From contig CALUWK010000003.1 in assembly GCA_944324475.1 (NCBI GenBank), forward strand, positions 1 to 64,000: 64,000 nucleotides of DNA, written 5' to 3'. Of this stretch, positions 2,041-30,591 are shown in pieces. The DNA comes from Candidatus Gastranaerophilales bacterium. GTDB lineage: Bacteria; Cyanobacteriota; Vampirovibrionia; Gastranaerophilales; Gastranaerophilaceae. Position 1 is the stretch's first letter. Each line of letters starts with the position of its first letter. The position numbers and the translations under genes were made by a program. The notes under the pieces are model-generated. The model worked only from the letters and a program-made list of their open reading frames with translations. It was not told where the DNA came from and ran no database searches.

Positions 2041-4395
2041 TTAAAAATACATAAAATCTTTATCTTTTCTTTTAAAATGACTTATCATAGGTAACCCCAT
2101 AACTAATTGTAAAAATGTTCTTTTTTGTTTTTCGGTTTTATCTTGATTTCTATAGACCATATCATTTAGGTATAATTCATCTGAGTCTGATGATATTGAA
2201 CTTTGAAAATCAACACCGCTGTCACCACTGTTGTTATCATTATCACTTGATGAGTCATCGGTACCTGTGTCTGGACATTTTGTTGGGTTTGGTTTTGGGG
2301 TATTAATGACTGGGCTATCTTCAAAATCTGCCCCGCTGTCACCACTGTTGTTATCATTATCATCTGATGAGCCATCTGTGTCTATGTCAGGACAGTAGGT
2401 TGAAGTTGGTCTTTCAGTCGGTTTAGTTGTCGGTTTAGCCGTTGGTTTAGCTGTCGGTTTAGCCGTTGGTTCAGCCGTAGGTCTTTCAGTCGGTTTAGCC
2501 GTTGGTTTAGCTGTCGGTTTAGCTGTCGGTTTAGCCGTTGGTTTTTCTCCCGGAGGAGTTGCAACTGGTGGGTCTGTTAAAATAGGCGTATCAGTTGGAG
2601 TTATGGGTGGAAGTGTATAATTCGGAGTTGGTTCAGCTGTAGGCTTAGCCGTTGGTTTAGCTGTAGGCTTAGCCGTTGGTTTAGCTGTAGGCTTAGCCGT
2701 TGGTTTAGCTGTTGGTTTAGCTGTTGGTTTAGCTGTTGGCCTTTCAGTTGGTTCAGCTGTAGGCTTAGCCGTTGGTTTAGCTGTAGGCTTAGCTGTTGGT
2801 CTTTCAGTTGGCATTGGAGTTGGTTCAGCTGTAGGAATTGAAGTTGGTTTAGCTGTTGGTCTTTCAGTTGGCATTGGAGTTGGTTCAGCTGTAGGAATTG
2901 AAGTTGGTTTAGCTGTAGGAATTGAAGTTGGTTTAGCTGTTGGTTTTGGAGTTGAAGATTCATAAACTATTGAAGTTGGTTCATAGTCAATATGAGCATA
3001 TGCTATAGGTTGTAGGTTGATTTTTGCGTTTTCGCCATCAAGTAAACTGTATCCTAGAGGAGTTTGTAAATCTTGTTCATTTATGACTCTATCACCATAA
3101 ATATTTATTAATTCGTTATTATTATCTATAATTTGTCTGTATGATGAAGTTAATAATGCGCCGTATTTTTCAGGGTTTTTGTAATACATTTCTTTTAGAC
3201 TTTCATCATCTGTTAAGCCGTACAAATCCAGTATATCAAGAGGAGTTGTTTCAATGCCGTTTAAATCTTCAAGATTAGCAACTGTTCTATCGGATGTAAT
3301 ATAGCTTATTGCAGGAGCTTCATCTCTTTCGGTTCTTAAAAATGTATCAATGTTAAAGTTATTTTTTTGACTATCCTTTATTATTACACTTACAGGAACT
3401 TTAGGACATACTATTTCAAGTTTATTATTATATTTTACGTAGTTCATAAGAGCATCTTTGTGGTTAGCTTCGCTTGCATATTTAAATATGTCTTCGTTTT
3501 GTTTTTCCGCACCTATTGCATGCCAAATAGCGTCTCCAGCATAACATTCCATGGTATCAAAACCGTAAGTTTCCGAAAGTTTACTGTTAACAAGTTCAAT
3601 TAAAGTGTTGTTATTCATTGCTTCATTTAATTCTTCTTGCGAGAAGTATATCCTAGTTTCGCCAAATTGATCTGCCTCTTTTGGTAAAAGTTCTATATTT
3701 GAAATCATTATAGAATTGTAATCTTTGGTAGTTTCTTCCGTAAGATTGAATTCAGGAACAAGAATTGCTGTTTTTTCGCCTTCGGTTGTGTAGTCTGTTG
3801 CACGTATTAATTCAGGGTCAATATTTGACATATCACCTTGGGTAAAATCGACTTGACCATCAGTAACTTTTTCTGCCATCCATGGGTTAGCTATGACTCT
3901 TGCTAGTGCAGCTTGATTTTTGTAGTATTCATCATCTGTTTCGTTTGGATATAATGCCGAGGTTAATTCATCCATGTCTGAAAAATCATTCCCTGTTTCA
4001 ATGTTTTGGGTGATATATGCTAAAGATGTAACAGGTTTGAAATTTTTTGCATCCCAGTTTCCTGTTAAATCAAAGGTTAATGATGGTGCATCTAATGTTT
4101 GTGCAAGTTGAAATCTGTTATCATCTTCAATTTCTATAATTTCTGTTGGAGTTAAATTAGAATAATCATCGATTCTTTTTTCAAATGATGATGCAGATGC
4201 TTTAGCAGGACTTAAAAGAGAAGCTAATAAAAGTGCTCCTGAAGCTAGGTATGCCATTATTTTATTTCTGTTTTCGTCATCTTCTCTTTTCCCTTTGAAA
4301 TTAATAGGATTTAGATTGTAGTTGTTTATTGTTCTATTTACGTTGTAGTTTCTGGGTTGATTTGATCGGATAGATGGAATTTTAGTTACATTCAT
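2041..4395 (-). CDS. Large Pro/Thr-repeat surface-type protein of unknown function
   Basis: 784 residues; I do not recognise a family. Order: a polar 45-residue leader holding an INFKGK motif (31-36); a hydrophobic segment AYLASGALLLASLLSPAKASA (about 48-68) that looks like a late signal peptide or anchor; an unknown globular region (about 70-470); a long Pro/Thr stalk made of PTAKPT, PTAEPT and PTERPT units (about 475-665); two copies of an acidic CPDxxTD...DNDNNSGDSG module; and a basic tail with a short hydrophobic stretch. The Pro/Thr stalk resembles extended linkers of bacterial surface proteins. The acidic modules resemble calcium-binding loops (inference). The start is backed by AGGAG 8 nt upstream. 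It is a single gene closed by a bidirectional terminator. Confidence 0.8.
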   Translation of the reverse strand: MNVTKIPSIRSNQPRNYNVNRTINNYNLNPINFKGKREDDENRNKIMAYLASGALLLASLLSPAKASASSFEKRIDDYSNLTPTEIIEIEDDNRFQLAQTLDAPSLTFDLTGNWDAKNFKPVTSLAYITQNIETGNDFSDMDELTSALYPNETDDEYYKNQAALARVIANPWMAEKVTDGQVDFTQGDMSNIDPELIRATDYTTEGEKTAILVPEFNLTEETTKDYNSIMISNIELLPKEADQFGETRIYFSQEELNEAMNNNTLIELVNSKLSETYGFDTMECYAGDAIWHAIGAEKQNEDIFKYASEANHKDALMNYVKYNNKLEIVCPKVPVSVIIKDSQKNNFNIDTFLRTERDEAPAISYITSDRTVANLEDLNGIETTPLDILDLYGLTDDESLKEMYYKNPEKYGALLTSSYRQIIDNNNELINIYGDRVINEQDLQTPLGYSLLDGENAKINLQPIAYAHIDYEPTSIVYESSTPKPTAKPTSIPTAKPTSIPTAEPTPMPTERPTAKPTSIPTAEPTPMPTERPTAKPTAKPTAKPTAEPTERPTAKPTAKPTAKPTAKPTAKPTAKPTAKPTAKPTAEPTPNYTLPPITPTDTPILTDPPVATPPGEKPTAKPTAKPTAKPTAKPTERPTAEPTAKPTAKPTAKPTTKPTERPTSTYCPDIDTDGSSDDNDNNSGDSGADFEDSPVINTPKPNPTKCPDTGTDDSSSDNDNNSGDSGVDFQSSISSDSDELYLNDMVYRNQDKTEKQKRTFLQLVMGLPMISHFKRKDKDFMYF
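2398..2950 (-). repeat. Coding tandem repeats (Pro-Thr stalk)
   Basis: Short 12-base units (complement of ggtttagctgtt and ggcttagccgtt variants) repeat dozens of times. They are interrupted at about 2546-2620 by a non-repetitive stretch. Synonymous third-base changes between units show selection on the protein repeat PTxKPT rather than very recent expansion. Larger blocks (SIPTAEPTPMPTERPTAKPT) are themselves duplicated at about 2790-2910. Confidence 0.9.
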
Positions 4396-23051: not shown

Positions 23052-23192
23052 TTATGCATTAAAAGCTGAAATTACAGTCGGAATTTGTGTTGTGTTTGAT
23101 GCAGATATATAGTTTACAGTCCAGATAAACATTGTGCAAGAAATTAATACCAGCGCTCCTAAAAGAAAGTTTGTTAGTCCGGTTTCTGTCAT
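23052..23192 (-). CDS. 46-residue single-span membrane peptide, unknown
   Basis: A short open frame on the minus strand: ATG at 23192, TAA at 23052, with AGGAAAA about 5 nt upstream. The product has one hydrophobic span (FLLGALVLISCTMFIWTV, about 9-26) and a polar tail rich in Ser, Thr and Asn ending ISAFNA. No family is recognised. It lies 23 nt downstream of a second small gene under the same promoter. It could be a small envelope or export-related peptide; the size also fits holin- or toxin-like peptides, but nothing specific supports that. Confidence 0.6.
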   Translation of the reverse strand: MTETGLTNFLLGALVLISCTMFIWTVNYISASNTTQIPTVISAFNA

Positions 23193-23215: not shown

Positions 23216-23383
23216 CTATGCCATTGCAGAAAAAGAGCCTGAAGTTGTATTTGTTGAATTGCTCGCTATTGAACCTGCTGTTTCTGTTGAGAAAATTGAT
23301 GGAGGAGTTGAATTTACTGCAAGAGTTCCTGCGGTTTCAGGTTTAGGATTTGAATTAGTGTTTAAATTTACTGTGTTTAACAT
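23216..23383 (-). CDS. 55-residue Ser/Thr/Asn-rich small protein, unknown
   Basis: ATG at 23383, TAG at 23216, with an excellent AAGGAG 8 nt upstream. The product is almost half Ser, Thr and Asn, with repeated motifs TETAGSIASN and STNTTSGSF, and no membrane span. It ends SFSAMA, similar in style to the ISAFNA end of the neighbouring 46-residue peptide. No family is recognised. A promoter and inverted repeat lie just upstream. The strong ribosome site and own promoter argue that it is a real gene. Confidence 0.65.
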   Translation of the reverse strand: MLNTVNLNTNSNPKPETAGTLAVNSTPPSIFSTETAGSIASNSTNTTSGSFSAMA

Positions 23384-23489: not shown

Positions 23490-25631
23490 TTAAATTTGAC
23501 TTATTAATTCCTCAATTTCTTCTTCGGTTTCAACTTTTTTTATTTCGGTTAAAATTCTTTTTTTGTGCTCTATTGTTTTTTCAAGGTTTTTAATTTTTGC
23601 ATCAATGTTAGTAGAATCAAAATTAGTCTTCGCTCTTTTGTATTTTTCTGATAACTCATTGATTTTAGCTATAAGTTCATTTTTTGGAGTTAAGCTTTTT
23701 AGTTTATTTAGTAGCTCATCTCTTTTGATTTCATCTATTTGCTTTTCGTTTAGTAAATCATAATATTTGTTTAATTCTGCAATAATTATGGAAATTTCGT
23801 TAAGGTTTTCTTGAATTTTAATTAAGTTATTGTTTTTTGCAAGGTTGGCAATAATTTCTTTTGCTTTTTGTTGTGCGAGTTGATAAATAAGACTGTTTAT
23901 TTGTGGGATTTTGCGGTTTTGATTTTGTTTTTCTTCCATTTCTTTTGCCACTATAATAACTTCATTCATTTTTTTATAGGTTTCAAGATCTTTTTCATTG
24001 CATTCTGATGTGTCAATATTTTGGTTTTCTTGTAGTAGGGCTTGAATTTGCGCTTCTTTTTCTTTTATTTTTTGTTCTATATTGTTGTTGTTATTTATAA
24101 TTGAATTGAGTTTGGCAATTTCTTGATTTAGTGTTGCTATTTCAGATAATTGAGCTTCTAACAATTCTATTTGGCTTTTGATGTCTTCAGGAAATTCAAT
24201 TTTACTTTTTAATATTTCTAATCTATTTTCTATTTGTGAAATATTATTTTGAATTTGAGATAGTTTTTCTTGCGCATTTTTTAATTGTGCTTCAAGTATT
24301 TTGAAGTTTTTAGAGTTTAAGAAGGATTCGATTTTGTTTATTTCTTTTTTGCACCTTTCCTTTTCTTTTGGAGTGAGATTGTCTGTTTCAAGCTTTTTTT
24401 TCTTATTTTTTAATTCTGTTATTTTATTGTAGTATTTGTTTAAAAATGATTTCTTTTTGTTTATTTCTTCAATGCTTTCTTTTTTTTGAATTTCAAGATA
24501 TTTCTTTTTTGTTTTAAGGATTGTATATTCAACTATAAAATTGAATTCTTCATTTTGGTTTAATTCTGCTTTAAGCTTTTTTAGAGCCTCTAAGTCTTTT
24601 ATTTGATTTTCAAGAGTTTTTTCAATTTGTGATATTCTTTGTTCTATGTTGCTTGGATTGTAATATTCTATTTGTTCGATTTTTGGAACAGCTATGTTAA
24701 CTTTCTTTTGTGTTTCTGTGGAGATTGTTTTTGAGATATCTTCCAGATAAGTTGAATACGCATTTGAAATTTCACCTGATTGTAGTTTTAGCGCAATAAT
24801 AATAAAATAATTTTTTAAGTTTTCAATAAATAAAGGTATATTTTTAATAAATTGCAAAAGTGGCATGTCATTTCTTTTTGAATTGCACTCTTGGCATTCT
24901 GCTATATAGTTTGCAGTATTGTTTTTTCCGCCCTTAGATTTTGGTTTTATATGTTCACAAGTTATAAAAGAAGGTTTAACAAGTCTTGAAGCAATTTCTG
25001 CTTGACTTTTGTTAGTGTATTTAATAAAAAATTCAAGTTTTTTATCTTTTATGTCAGGCATATTTTTTATAGTTTTTATGATTCTTTTTTTGTTCGAATA
25101 TTCGCCTTGTACCTCTTCTTCGATTTCATCTATAATGGCTTGTTTGTTAAAATAGTTGTCGTTATTGTATATATTTTCATATTTTTCAATTATGGCGGTC
25201 ATTTTTTTTCTTTGAGAAGGTGGCAAGTTTTGGGTTAATTTTTTTATTTTTTTAATAGCATCTTCTTGTTGCAATGTGTATTTTGAAAAAATTTCGTTAA
25301 TATAATTACTGACAAGTTCTGCTATATTTTTATCAGGGTGCTTTTGTGCCTCAAAACTCAGTATTTCTGCTATTTTTGATTCGAAATCGTGAAAATACTT
25401 TTTGTATTTTGACAATAAAATGCAAAGCTCTTCTCCTTTTGTATTTTGTATTTCATTAACAAAATTATCGATTTGGTTTCTTTGAAGCATGGGGAATGAA
25501 CATATAGGGCAGGGGAGCTCATATAAGTTTTTTATTTCAAAATCAGATTCTTGACAGTCGAAACCCTTAAAGAATTGTTTGTTTTGTGGTTTTAAGTATA
25601 TATTGTTATAGTTTATATATGTAATTTTCAT
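23490..25631 (-). CDS. HNH-type zinc nuclease domain with long coiled coil (paralogue 2)
   Basis: 713 residues. A short leader with FFKGF (20-24) is followed by a CPIC pair (C41, C44), a helical region (about 60-215), and an HNH-like core with EHIKPKSKGG (H227), N241 and CQECNSKR (C246, C249, N250). A very long coiled coil rich in Lys, Glu, Ile and Asn runs from about 330 to the end. HNH motifs cut DNA or RNA in restriction, defence and homing enzymes; the coiled coil suggests dimerisation or an SMC-like arm (inference). It is paralogous to the gene upstream, which it overlaps by 4 bp (ATGA). No obvious terminator follows. Confidence 0.75.
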   Translation of the reverse strand: MKITYINYNNIYLKPQNKQFFKGFDCQESDFEIKNLYELPCPICSFPMLQRNQIDNFVNEIQNTKGEELCILLSKYKKYFHDFESKIAEILSFEAQKHPDKNIAELVSNYINEIFSKYTLQQEDAIKKIKKLTQNLPPSQRKKMTAIIEKYENIYNNDNYFNKQAIIDEIEEEVQGEYSNKKRIIKTIKNMPDIKDKKLEFFIKYTNKSQAEIASRLVKPSFITCEHIKPKSKGGKNNTANYIAECQECNSKRNDMPLLQFIKNIPLFIENLKNYFIIIALKLQSGEISNAYSTYLEDISKTISTETQKKVNIAVPKIEQIEYYNPSNIEQRISQIEKTLENQIKDLEALKKLKAELNQNEEFNFIVEYTILKTKKKYLEIQKKESIEEINKKKSFLNKYYNKITELKNKKKKLETDNLTPKEKERCKKEINKIESFLNSKNFKILEAQLKNAQEKLSQIQNNISQIENRLEILKSKIEFPEDIKSQIELLEAQLSEIATLNQEIAKLNSIINNNNNIEQKIKEKEAQIQALLQENQNIDTSECNEKDLETYKKMNEVIIVAKEMEEKQNQNRKIPQINSLIYQLAQQKAKEIIANLAKNNNLIKIQENLNEISIIIAELNKYYDLLNEKQIDEIKRDELLNKLKSLTPKNELIAKINELSEKYKRAKTNFDSTNIDAKIKNLEKTIEHKKRILTEIKKVETEEEIEELISQI

Positions 25632-27889
25632 GATTTATAATATATTGAATTTAAGAGTTTTCTGTATTCTTCGTCGTTTAGGGCTCTATATTTTATTTTT
25701 AATTTGCCTAAAATCTTTTGATTATAGGATAATATATCTTGAAGGTTTTTAAGTTCAGTTGTAAGATCGGAGAAATTTATAATTTTTTGATGCAAAAGGT
25801 ATTCTGATTTTAATTTTTCATATAAAGCTTTAATTTCATTCAGACTTTTGTTTTCACTTATTTTGTTATATTCGAGGTATAATCTTTGAAGTTCGTGTTC
25901 AATTTCATTAATTTCTTTTAGTCTTGTTCTTATAATTGCTTCTTCTTCTTGAAATTGGGATATTTTTGCCAGATTCATAAAATATCTGATTTCATCTTTT
26001 TGAGTAAGGGCGATAACTTTTTTTCTTATTTCATTTTGAGCAATTTCGATTACCTCAAGAGCGTTTTGGCTTGAAATTCCTTCATTTTTTGAATTATAGT
26101 ATTCGCCAATTTGATTTGCGGCTTCATATAATTGTTCAAGATGGCAATATTTCTGATATTTTGCGTTATCTTTTGTATCGACTGTCCCCTTTTGAAGAAT
26201 TGCTATATTTTCTTCTTCAAGCTCTTTTTTTTCTTTTTCAATGGAAGCCAGTCTTTCTTTAAGGATTTGCTTGTCAAATATGGAATTTTTAATTGAATTT
26301 ATTTCCGAAGTTATTGATTCGAGTTTTTTTATGGTTGTTTCTATTGTTTCAAGTGAAGTATCGAGTTGGCTGTTGTTAGCAATTAATTTTTTTAAGGTAT
26401 TTGATTTATCTTTTAAAATATTTATTTGATTTTCAATTTGATTGAGTTGTTCGTTTATGTGGTTTATTTCATTTTCGCTCATTTCAAGTTGTTCAATTTG
26501 GTAGGTTTTGTTTAAGTGTTCTATTTCTGTTAAAATTTCATCAACATTTTCGCTTGTATTGGTGTTTAATTTTAGTTCAAGTGCTGATATTTTATTGAGA
26601 GTATTTATGCAAATTTCTTTTTTCTGTTGTGAAATTGTTAGTTTTTGCTTTAGTTCAGTTTGTTTTGCTTCAAGGTCTTTAATATTTTTTTGAATTAATG
26701 AATATTCAGAAATGTTTTCAAATTGTGGATGTTCTTTTAATTGCGCAATTTCTTTTCTTAAAAATATTATTTTTCCTATTAATTCACCCATTTTTCGATT
26801 TATCGCATTAATTTCCATTCTTCTTTTTTCAAGAAATGCTTTTTTTTCTTCGTCATTGCTGCTGGTTGGTTTAGTTAATTTAATTTTTCCATGACTTATT
26901 TGTGAAATTGTTTTAATAATTTCTTCGATGTAGTTATCGTATTTTGGATTTAATTCCCCATGATCAAGCGCTTTTTGAATATCTGCGAGATATTGTTGCA
27001 GTCCTTCTTGTATGTTTTTTTTATCTTGTACCCATTCGTCAAATAAAATATTACCTCTTGATGAATTGCAATATTCGCAATCACAAATAAAATTGTTTAT
27101 TTTGTTTGGTCCTTGTTTGGATTTTGGTACTAAATGTTCTGTGCTTGGTGAAGTTTGTTTTATTAATTTGCTTGCAATTTCTTCATTTGAGCGTGTAGTT
27201 TCTGAATATTTTACAAAAAATGCACTTATTTCATTATCTGAAGTTGGAATTTTAACCGCAATTTTTATTATTTGTTGTTTAATTTTCTCATCTTTTACTG
27301 TTGATTGAATATCGTATATGAAATTTTTTCTTTTAAATTTGGTTTCTGATATTCCTAAGGCTTGTTTCTTGTATTCATTTAATACGTTAAAGAAAGTTTC
27401 CTTTTCTTCTTGAGTTATTTTGGTATTATTGATGTAATTTTCTAATTCATTTATTACTGCGAATTGTTTTTTTATAAGTTCTTCGAGGTATTTTTTTGAT
27501 TTTAATCTGACGAGTTCAGATATTGACAGGTTAGGATATTCAAGAGCCATTTGTTTTAAAATGTTTACAACTTCTTGTTTTTGTTTTCTGTATATCGTTT
27601 TATGTTTGTTCATGCCCTCATCTTTAACAAATATGGATTCATCTTCATATTTTTCGAGAGCATCTTTAAGGTCTTTACCTTTTTTGTTTGCTACATCATC
27701 AATGAAAGCTTTTTGTTCGTTGTTGTTTAACATTAAAAGACCACAGATAGGGCAGTGAAGGTGGGGAATTTTTTTTACTTCATCAAAATTGTTTTTGCCA
27801 AAATAAATAGGCTGAAAACCTACAGGATTTGTTTTATATGTTTTTGTATTTATTTTGTTTATTTTTGTTATTTGAAAATTTATTTTCAT
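25628..27889 (-). CDS. HNH-type zinc nuclease domain with long coiled coil (paralogue 1)
   Basis: 753 residues with the same layout as its downstream paralogue: a leader with PIYFGKN (27-33), CPIC (C46, C49), and a helical insertion. The HNH-like core has EHLVPKSKQG (H252), N266 and CEYCNSSR (C271, C274, N275), and a coiled coil runs from about 350 to the end. The two share the core and insertion pattern but have diverged widely, so this is an old duplication. The start overlaps the helicase stop by 4 bp, and no ribosome-binding site is seen, implying coupled translation. The function is not known; a nucleic-acid cutting partner of the helicase is inferred. Confidence 0.75.
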   Translation of the reverse strand: MKINFQITKINKINTKTYKTNPVGFQPIYFGKNNFDEVKKIPHLHCPICGLLMLNNNEQKAFIDDVANKKGKDLKDALEKYEDESIFVKDEGMNKHKTIYRKQKQEVVNILKQMALEYPNLSISELVRLKSKKYLEELIKKQFAVINELENYINNTKITQEEKETFFNVLNEYKKQALGISETKFKRKNFIYDIQSTVKDEKIKQQIIKIAVKIPTSDNEISAFFVKYSETTRSNEEIASKLIKQTSPSTEHLVPKSKQGPNKINNFICDCEYCNSSRGNILFDEWVQDKKNIQEGLQQYLADIQKALDHGELNPKYDNYIEEIIKTISQISHGKIKLTKPTSSNDEEKKAFLEKRRMEINAINRKMGELIGKIIFLRKEIAQLKEHPQFENISEYSLIQKNIKDLEAKQTELKQKLTISQQKKEICINTLNKISALELKLNTNTSENVDEILTEIEHLNKTYQIEQLEMSENEINHINEQLNQIENQINILKDKSNTLKKLIANNSQLDTSLETIETTIKKLESITSEINSIKNSIFDKQILKERLASIEKEKKELEEENIAILQKGTVDTKDNAKYQKYCHLEQLYEAANQIGEYYNSKNEGISSQNALEVIEIAQNEIRKKVIALTQKDEIRYFMNLAKISQFQEEEAIIRTRLKEINEIEHELQRLYLEYNKISENKSLNEIKALYEKLKSEYLLHQKIINFSDLTTELKNLQDILSYNQKILGKLKIKYRALNDEEYRKLLNSIYYKS

Positions 27890-30591
27890 AAGGATGTCTC
27901 ATCATAAATTGGATTTTGTTTAATTAAAATTGTTGCAAGTTGAGCATTTTCTTTTAATTCCAGATAATATTTTTGATTTGGATATAACTCTTTATTTTGA
28001 ATTGCAAAATCGCAAATTTTATCAATTTGTTTTAAAATACTTATCATTTGTGAAATTATACTATAAACATTTCCTTCTTGTGTTTTTCTTAAATATTCTT
28101 GCGCAGCATCTTTTGTATTTGTCATTTGTTCGTGTGTTAAAGGATTACAACCTGAATTTGTAAGTTTTCTGAAATTGGATATTGAATCATTATTTTTGTT
28201 GTTTAAATGCGCCCAAAGGTACCCGCAATAACCTGAAAAACTATCGGAGTATATTATTTCGTCAAGAGGTATTTTGTTTCCCAGAAGATTTTTTAGTATT
28301 TTTTCTTCTGTTTCTTGGAATATTTTTCTTGTATTGTTGAAATTAGTTTTTTGATTTTCAAAATCAGTTTCATATTTTAAAATGTCATAAAATCTTTGAT
28401 TTAATAGTGATGGCATATTTTCATTTTCTTTTTGTGTGATAGAAATTGCTATGTAGCCAATCATTTGGCATAATTGCTCATAATTAAGGTTTTTAAATTT
28501 TTCATCATATACTAAAGTTGCAAGCATGAGAGGGTTTAAACCTTGGCTTAAAGTTAAAATTTTCCCTTTTGGAGTTAAGTGTATTTCATTATTATTTTTT
28601 TGAATAAATCCTTGTTTTAAAAGAACTGATTTGTAATTTTCAAATTTGCTTAAAAGCGAACGTTTTGTTTTTTCGGGATCTTTTGATAAGTATACTTTAA
28701 AAGATGAAACAATAATTTCTTCTAAATTGTTCATTGTGGAGTTATTTTCAAAATATTTTGCAAGCATTTGCCAGTCAGGCTTAAAATGACTTTTTAGTTT
28801 ATCTAAAGGGGAATCTATTAAATCGTATGCTTTGTGTAGCTCATCTTGTTTTTCTATTTTTGTTGTTTGTTGCTTGTTTTTTTGGGAATTAAAATTGTTT
28901 GTTTTAAGATTGTATAAAATGACGTAGCCCAGGGAGTCTATTCCTCTGCGTCCTGCCCTGCCTGCCATTTGATGAAAATCATTTGTGCTTAAATCTTGAT
29001 ATTCAACTTCTTGTGTTAGTGGGTTATATTTTTTGAAACTTGTATCTGAAATTACTGTTGTTTTTGCGGGCATGTTAATTCCTGCGCTTAAAGTAGAAGT
29101 TGCTATTACAACTTTTAGTAATTTTTTTGAAAATAATTCTTCGATTAATTTTTTGTATGCCGGTAAAATTCCAGCATGATGGTATGCAAAGCCTGATAGA
29201 AGCATTTTTTTGTCAAAATTATCTCCAAGAAAAATATTTTTTGATTGATAATCTTTTATAATTTTTGAAATTTGTTCTTTTTCTTCGTCTGTTGTAAGGT
29301 CAATCTTTTTTTCTTTTAAATTCTGGGCAATGTTAGAGCAACTTTTTTTCGAAAGTTTAAAAATTAGTGCAGGCAACATGTCATTTTCTTTTAAATTTTC
29401 AATAAGCTTACAGTAGTCGTCATCATGGTGTTTTGGGTATATTCTTTTTGTTTGTTCTGTTCCTTGTTCAATTAGAAATTGAGTTATTTCATTTAGCTGA
29501 GTATGGTTTAATTTATGGTATGTTCTTTTAAGAATATTTTTAAAGGTTTCTTCGTCTATTCTTTCTTGACCTTTTATTGTTTCTTTTAAACTTTTAGCTT
29601 GTGTTTCATATTGTTCAGAGGTCATTTCGTAGTATTCGTTAATGTTATTTTGTGTTTTAAATATTACTTCAAGTGCTCTTTTTTGCCTTTCTGTGGGATT
29701 TTTGATATCAAAATTACTCAGGTCAACAAAACCTTCTTTAATTGGTATAAAATTTTTATTTGTAGTTATTGTATTTGGATTTTCTTGGTAAATGTACCAA
29801 ATAAGAGGAACAAATCTTTCTTTTGGATTTACTTCAATTTTGGAGATTTTTCGTTTAGGGCTTATTGTGCTAATCCAGTCAGTAAATTCATCACTATTTC
29901 CTATTGTAGCTGACAAGCACAAAATTTGTACTTTATCAGAGGGAGTATTAATAATTGAATTTTCCCAAACGTTTCCTCTATCTTCGTCTGAAATGTAGTG
30001 AGCTTCGTCAAAAATGACAGTTCCTATATTCTTTGAATTTTCTTTTAAACTGCTCGATTGATTGTTATATATTTCAGTTGTCATTATTTGAATTGGAGCA
30101 TTTGTGTTTAATTTAATGTCTCCGGTTAAAAGTCCGACATTGTCATTGCCGTATATTTTTCTAAATTCTCTTAATTTATCATTTGCAAGCGCCTTGAGCG
30201 GGGTTGTATAAATTGTTTTTTTGCCTTTTTGTAGGTTTAATGTTGTTATGTAATGTGCTACAGCTGTTTTACCGGTGCCCGTTGGAGCGCAAAAAATTAC
30301 AGAATCTCCTTCGTATAGTCTTTTAGCGCATTCAAGCTGGTATTTATCGGGCCTCAGTTGATAAGTTGAGCCATCTGTAAAATTTATTTGAGGTAATTGA
30401 AAGTAGTTTTCATTTAATGTATTTTGAAAGCTTTGTTTCGTTTGAATTTGAAAATGACCTTTAAAAATTATATTTTTTGGATAAAATAGATGGCATTTTT
30501 TTGAATTGTTTTCAGGTTCTTTGGATATTTTTTTTGTTTTCAATTTGCTTTTTAGTGGAGCAAAATTGATGTTTTGTACTCGTGTAATCAT
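27886..30591 (-). CDS. Ski2/Mtr4-like DExH-box helicase
   Basis: 901 residues. A 60-residue leader with IIFKGH (41-46) precedes the helicase core: Walker A APTGTGKT (K108), TTPLKALANDKL, DEAHYISDEDRG (D195-H198), SATIGNS, HHAGILPAYKKLIEELF, ATSTLSAGINMPAKT, and motif VI QMAGRAGRRGID. After the core, PLDKLKSHFKPDWQMLAKYF matches the ratchet-helix element of Ski2-type proteins, followed by a winged-helix/DSHCT-like C-terminus. Ski2-type helicases unwind RNA for exosome-type decay; cyanobacteria and plastids carry relatives. First gene of a three-gene operon with two HNH proteins, so it may instead serve a nuclease complex. Confidence 0.9.
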   Translation of the reverse strand: MITRVQNINFAPLKSKLKTKKISKEPENNSKKCHLFYPKNIIFKGHFQIQTKQSFQNTLNENYFQLPQINFTDGSTYQLRPDKYQLECAKRLYEGDSVIFCAPTGTGKTAVAHYITTLNLQKGKKTIYTTPLKALANDKLREFRKIYGNDNVGLLTGDIKLNTNAPIQIMTTEIYNNQSSSLKENSKNIGTVIFDEAHYISDEDRGNVWENSIINTPSDKVQILCLSATIGNSDEFTDWISTISPKRKISKIEVNPKERFVPLIWYIYQENPNTITTNKNFIPIKEGFVDLSNFDIKNPTERQKRALEVIFKTQNNINEYYEMTSEQYETQAKSLKETIKGQERIDEETFKNILKRTYHKLNHTQLNEITQFLIEQGTEQTKRIYPKHHDDDYCKLIENLKENDMLPALIFKLSKKSCSNIAQNLKEKKIDLTTDEEKEQISKIIKDYQSKNIFLGDNFDKKMLLSGFAYHHAGILPAYKKLIEELFSKKLLKVVIATSTLSAGINMPAKTTVISDTSFKKYNPLTQEVEYQDLSTNDFHQMAGRAGRRGIDSLGYVILYNLKTNNFNSQKNKQQTTKIEKQDELHKAYDLIDSPLDKLKSHFKPDWQMLAKYFENNSTMNNLEEIIVSSFKVYLSKDPEKTKRSLLSKFENYKSVLLKQGFIQKNNNEIHLTPKGKILTLSQGLNPLMLATLVYDEKFKNLNYEQLCQMIGYIAISITQKENENMPSLLNQRFYDILKYETDFENQKTNFNNTRKIFQETEEKILKNLLGNKIPLDEIIYSDSFSGYCGYLWAHLNNKNNDSISNFRKLTNSGCNPLTHEQMTNTKDAAQEYLRKTQEGNVYSIISQMISILKQIDKICDFAIQNKELYPNQKYYLELKENAQLATILIKQNPIYDETSL

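Follow-up and report, generated by a model that had tools for sequence, protein, structure and literature searches.

Gastranaerophilales are non-photosynthetic cyanobacteria of the gut, and helicases of the Ski2/Mtr4 class usually pass RNA to exonucleases or serve in defence. A related working mode is known from Hachiman (HamAB), in which the nuclease HamA, a DUF1837 protein with a D-E(X)K motif, is held by the Ski2-like helicase HamB, which is Hel308-like in activity (PMC12278908). Hachiman and AbpAB resemble the locus described here in that both are two-part operons of a nuclease and a Ski2-like helicase; they differ from it in that the nuclease here is an HNH protein with a coiled coil, the helicase belongs to the DSHCT type and the locus holds a fixed place in the chromosome. 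In the open literature, no description of a Ski2-like helicase paired with an HNH protein was found.

The locus lies in a stretch of 64,000 nucleotides (the window), and consists of three genes on the minus strand whose coordinates, lengths and two 4-bp overlaps, given in a preliminary description, were reproduced from the open reading frames:

27886–30591, minus strand: gene of the Ski2/Mtr4-class DExH helicase (P0001), 901 aa
25628–27889, minus strand: gene of HNH-A (P0002), 753 aa, with a split-zinc HNH domain and a C-terminal coiled coil
23490–25631, minus strand: gene of HNH-B (P0003), 713 aa, a paralogue of HNH-A found in some species of the genus only

The overlaps join the helicase to HNH-A (27886–27889) and HNH-A to HNH-B (25628–25631) and, together with their conservation, suggest that the three proteins are made in fixed order from a single message. 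Promoter-like sites at the operon do not exceed chance level, and tRNAs alone stand above cut-off in an Rfam scan. Relatives with the same gene order carry the annotation Candidatus Gastranaerophilales and come from gut samples, which places the window in this group. Directly downstream of the HNH gene there is a 55-aa peptide of ETAGSIA-like repeat units (23216–23383, minus strand), which is conserved among several members of the genus (G107, G161, G176, G187 and locus L174), including some that have no helicase, and has a further copy on the same contig (L111:1460–1651). Adjoining it is a conserved 46-aa peptide with a single hydrophobic stretch (MTETGLTNFLLGALV..., 23052–23192, minus strand).

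The assignment of the first gene to the Ski2/Mtr4 type is borne out by sequence and by structure. Pfam recognises the DEAD (E 1e-27) and Helicase_C (1e-8) domains, and a phmmer search of the PDB places yeast Ski2 (8.5e-65) and Mtr4/Dob1 (2e-61) on top, with Hel308 and HamB far lower. The enzyme has the motifs GTGKT (with K108), DEAH (195–198) and QMAGRAGRRG (541–550), and motifs I, II and VI are intact, with G105-K108-T109, D195/E196 and Q541...R548 invariant in 31 relatives. The DSHCT C-terminal domain, present in 30 of these 31 relatives (best E 1.6e-25), is weak in P0001 itself (E 0.0036, under the Pfam cut-off). In the AlphaFold model (pLDDT 84) the N-terminus is disordered to residue 50, and the first 29 Foldseek matches are of Mtr4 or Ski2 type, Hel308 being the 30th; the Mtr4 match reaches 4e-35, with a TM-score to the target of 0.74. 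Scans of the organism's own genome, which covered about 1.23 Mb of 1.72 Mb as separate stretches, revealed a second copy, a 777-aa housekeeping helicase on contig C16 that, like its cyanobacterial relatives, lacks a leader and begins straight at the helicase domain. The operon enzyme is thus close to the Ski2/Mtr4 RNA helicases in sequence and structure and differs from them in having an HNH partner and no exosome, in its N-terminal leader and in being an accessory copy beside this leaderless one. A human-gut phage record (MT835496.1, 63701–65143) also encodes a Ski2-like helicase, with about 37% identity to that of the window over 40% of the length.

The two partners are paralogues (27% identity) with CPIC pairs, as had been proposed, and their relatives have in common a domain of about 300 residues formed by a CPxC-G..M segment, a helical insert, the EH...N...CxxCN core and a conserved tail. 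The corresponding features are:

27743–27754, minus strand: CPIC of HNH-A (C46, C49; residues 46–49), first half of the split zinc ribbon
27047–27151, minus strand: beta-beta-alpha metal site of HNH-A (residues 247–281; H252)
25500–25511, minus strand: CPIC of HNH-B (C41, C44; residues 41–44), first half of the split zinc ribbon
24873–24968, minus strand: beta-beta-alpha metal site of HNH-B (residues 222–253; E226, H227, N241, N250, C246/C249)
23496–24647, minus strand: coiled-coil region of HNH-B (residues 329–712, AlphaFold model)

Both proteins match HNH_5/HNH (PF14279, PF01844; E 1e-4 to 1e-7) over the 40 residues of the EH...N...CxxCN site, around which phage HNH families and IscB match as well. 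The likeness to these families is that of the beta-beta-alpha metal motif and does not extend past it; here the domain is of about 300 residues, its flanks are conserved and a helical insert separates the two CxxC halves. All 83 sequences retain H227 and N250, and 82 retain N241, the remaining one being an alignment gap. C249 is missing in all 13 sequences without C44, against 3/68 otherwise (p 1.5e-12), a paired loss that occurred on more than one branch; since the two cysteines are lost together, they belong to one split zinc site. The sequences of one HNH subfamily (L098, L101, L158–L160, L162–L164, L166) lack the zinc cysteines, C44 being replaced by R, T or Y and C249 by G or A, and keep all the catalytic residues.

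The AlphaFold model of HNH-B (pLDDT 91) has a strand-strand-helix at 222–253, which Foldseek superposes on HNH endonucleases at 0.7 Å over 44 residues (probability 1.0), and long helices at about 329–712, for which it also returns coiled-coil proteins. The HNH-like core proposed from the letters alone is therefore upheld by the family matches, the invariant H227, N241 and N250 and the modelled fold, and the absence of an HNH fold at the EH/CxxC sites, which would have spoken against it, was not observed in this model. HNH-B has the fold in its model, the catalytic residues are intact, and both partners are predicted nucleases. The coiled coil is also present, and only its length needs correction, from 350 to about 385 residues in HNH-B. 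Its weak Foldseek and HMM similarity to SMC/Rad50-type proteins, which also possess a long coiled coil, is what any coiled coil would give, and those proteins differ in having an ABC ATPase head.

The connection between helicase and nuclease, first suggested by a single operon, holds in the wider comparison. Among the 79 loci with a helicase relative in the named genome collection, 17 fall in the clade of the window helicase and 62 contain other Ski2-like helicases; an HNH gene lies directly downstream on the same strand, at a gap of -14 to +3 bp, in 17/17 of the former and in 0/62 of the latter, which include photosynthetic cyanobacteria and some loci cut at contig ends. Seen by species, the window helicase occurs in 18 of the 28 members of the genus and is followed by an HNH gene in 17, the contig ending in the 18th; a second gene of the HNH-B type is found in only some of the species. 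Genera g1, g3 and g39 have linked helicases that form a single clade. A further linked pair, in genus g16 (G051, G015), sits on a separate branch in both the helicase and the HNH trees, so that the arrangement probably originated, or was kept, on more than one occasion, and it does not need the coil, since the linked HNH genes of G145 (385 aa) and G051 (379 aa) have none. In two g3 species (L069:12177–15026, L070:4286–7258), the gene of a leader-bearing AAA+ protein with an M41 peptidase domain extends over the beginning of the helicase gene, and its product is a possible third partner.

The ten species of the genus that are missing the window helicase are also informative. In six of them a full-length HNH protein with coiled coil persists (661–778 aa), and all six have a different, more distant accessory Ski2-like helicase elsewhere in the genome; the two types of accessory helicase never co-occur in a species of the genus. 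The remaining four, with neither helicase, have HNH lengths of 0, 363, 364 and 584 aa, the last of which (G084) counts against coupling. Fisher tests that ignore kinship give p 0.005 for coil against helicase and p 0.0006 for exclusivity. Within the genus, then, a coiled-coil HNH protein without the window helicase is usually accompanied by another accessory Ski2-like helicase. At the level of the family, the rule that a long HNH protein always means a helicase was rejected: other forms of 650–700 aa exist in genomes without an accessory helicase, which limits the relation between coil and helicase to this type of HNH protein and mainly to this genus.

All three proteins open with a leader of 23–45 residues that closes in an F.G or FG motif:

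30457–30591, minus strand: helicase leader (residues 1–45), ending in IIFKG, predicted to be disordered
27797–27889, minus strand: HNH-A leader (residues 1–31), ending in IYFG
25563–25631, minus strand: HNH-B leader (residues 1–23), ending in FFKG, predicted to be disordered

The leader is disordered in both AlphaFold models (P0001 and P0003), and no paper on such an element in Gastranaerophilales or Vampirovibrionia was found in the open literature. It also occurs on unrelated proteins of the lineage (AAA ATPases, AAA+/M41 protease-like proteins and an ankyrin-repeat protein), with examples at 2041–4395 in the window and at L272:8463–9920 in the same genome. The start box M[KR][IV]..[IVL] and the end box are found together in 9/21 against 95/1005 (p 8e-5), a control region showing no effect; the regular expression alone is weak outside the two families (2.3-fold, p 0.01, with shuffles also run). 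A weight matrix places 42 of 1078 proteins of the organism's own genome above a threshold of 7, where 12–17 are expected, although its training set was the operon's own families, themselves among the matches, and start codons were picked by rule. Applied to small samples, the matrix found no excess in a second family of this order and little in another order. The excess is a lead and not a result. One reading built on it treats the leader, M[KR]I..I ... [IV][ST]F.G, as a lineage-specific sorting tag for accessory Ski2-like helicases, HNH nucleases, AAA+/M41 protease-like and ankyrin proteins, and lets the operon supply nucleic-acid processing to the compartment or export route concerned; we regard this reading as doubtful.

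Several explanations of the operon have to be weighed against these observations. The idea of an anti-phage system, in which a sensor helicase would control the nuclease as in Hachiman, draws on the gene layout shared with Hachiman and AbpAB (PMC12278908), on PADLOC matches to HamB models at about 1e-29 and on the divergence of the HNH proteins, which at 59–64% identity are the fastest-evolving in the neighbourhood (helicase 74%, flanking genes 70–99%), their coils diverging more than their HNH cores. The PADLOC similarity, however, is generic to HamB and Hel308 helicases and falls on stretches of the shared helicase core, so that filing the operon under a known defence family was rejected; the helicase is of the DSHCT, Mtr4 type, with Mtr4 and Ski2 and not HamB as its top structures, and neither HNH partner matches HamA or DUF1837 in Pfam or PADLOC. 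The surroundings point in the same direction. Flanking genes keep their order and orientation on both sides, to the contig ends, in G127 and G057 (three species collinear), and a tRNA-Lys/tRNA-Arg border is common to G000, G057, G107 and G176; in G176 an HNH gene lies directly behind this tRNA pair and the helicase is absent. With an operon GC of 0.27–0.28 in a window that ranges from 0.25 to 0.36, a horizontally acquired island was rejected on grounds of ordinary composition and collinearity. Purifying selection acts on all three genes (pN/pS 0.24–0.38), the HNH proteins tested have no relatives in the phage and plasmid search, IMG/VR viral contigs contain no relatives of the window helicase clade, and the phage search with the helicase returned three weak matches only. 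The locus is consequently not variable, patchy or mobile as defence systems are, and its placement in a variable anti-phage island did not survive the comparison. A vertically inherited, collinear locus without mobile relatives tells against defence of the mobile-island kind and leaves other defence roles untouched; together with the near-universal presence of the HNH family in the family-rank group, it makes a defence function unlikely, and less likely than the first reading implied, while the functional unit is better supported.

Alternatively, the HNH proteins could be nucleases of independent or mildly selfish character, with genes that duplicate in a homing-like manner and stand behind a helicase incidentally. 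The HNH domain is in fact present in 176 of the 191 genomes of the family-rank group, typically as a stand-alone gene of 350–480 aa that sits between ordinary genes in one to several, often tandem, copies; many genomes have such genes far from any helicase, and most members have no helicase beside them. Full-length matches are confined to the order, other cyanobacteria giving generic HNH matches only, and in some species the coiled-coil forms, too, occur by themselves. The nuclease family is therefore independent of the helicase, and the occurrence of the coiled-coil proteins without it, named beforehand as an observation that would weaken the proposal, was partly found. Several observations tell against a selfish origin, which we consider improbable: 17/17 loci are linked, their reading frames overlapping or abutting; in several species the genes occupy a fixed place between the same neighbours; and the catalytic residues are invariant across a large, diverged family. 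A further view is that the common leader merely sends the products to the same organelle-like site, the envelope or an export route, where each acts alone and no complex forms. It would account for the leader's presence on the three operon proteins as well as on unrelated ones, for its absence from the housekeeping helicase and that enzyme's cyanobacterial relatives and for the leader-bearing AAA+/M41 protease-like genes that immediately precede the helicase in G002 and G042. The strict order of helicase and then HNH within a single clade and the pattern of swaps within the genus exceed mere co-targeting, and this view seems to us rather unlikely too.

The explanation that we tentatively prefer, at somewhat short of an even chance, is that the operon encodes one chromosomal, lineage-specific helicase-nuclease machine for nucleic-acid processing or surveillance. 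Computation establishes the protein families, the integrity of the catalytic residues, a linkage that is close and recurrent, vertical inheritance and purifying selection. In a physical complex of the three proteins, the helicase would unwind or thread nucleic acid at the expense of ATP and the HNH domains would then cut the exposed strand; the coiled coils may dimerise the nucleases or attach them to the helicase, and all three proteins may be gathered in one place by their disordered leaders. It counts against a single machine that Mtr4/Ski2 helicases work on RNA and HNH enzymes usually on DNA. The substrate could be RNA, or RNA-linked or damaged DNA, and processing or surveillance appears more likely than a mobile defence cassette; a role in RNA quality control, raised at the outset, is possible. 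Hachiman membership fails on the nuclease family, and the early impression that the operon matches no named system stands. As related species inherit the pairing and none of those systems accommodates it, it is probably a helicase-nuclease machine that has so far gone undescribed.

If this explanation is correct, an Mtr4-class helicase with an endonuclease-fold partner in a stable chromosomal operon would represent a different design of helicase-nuclease machine, whose coupling the natural helicase swaps inside one genus make directly testable, and it would give a function to an HNH family that is large, conserved and so far without a name in common gut bacteria.
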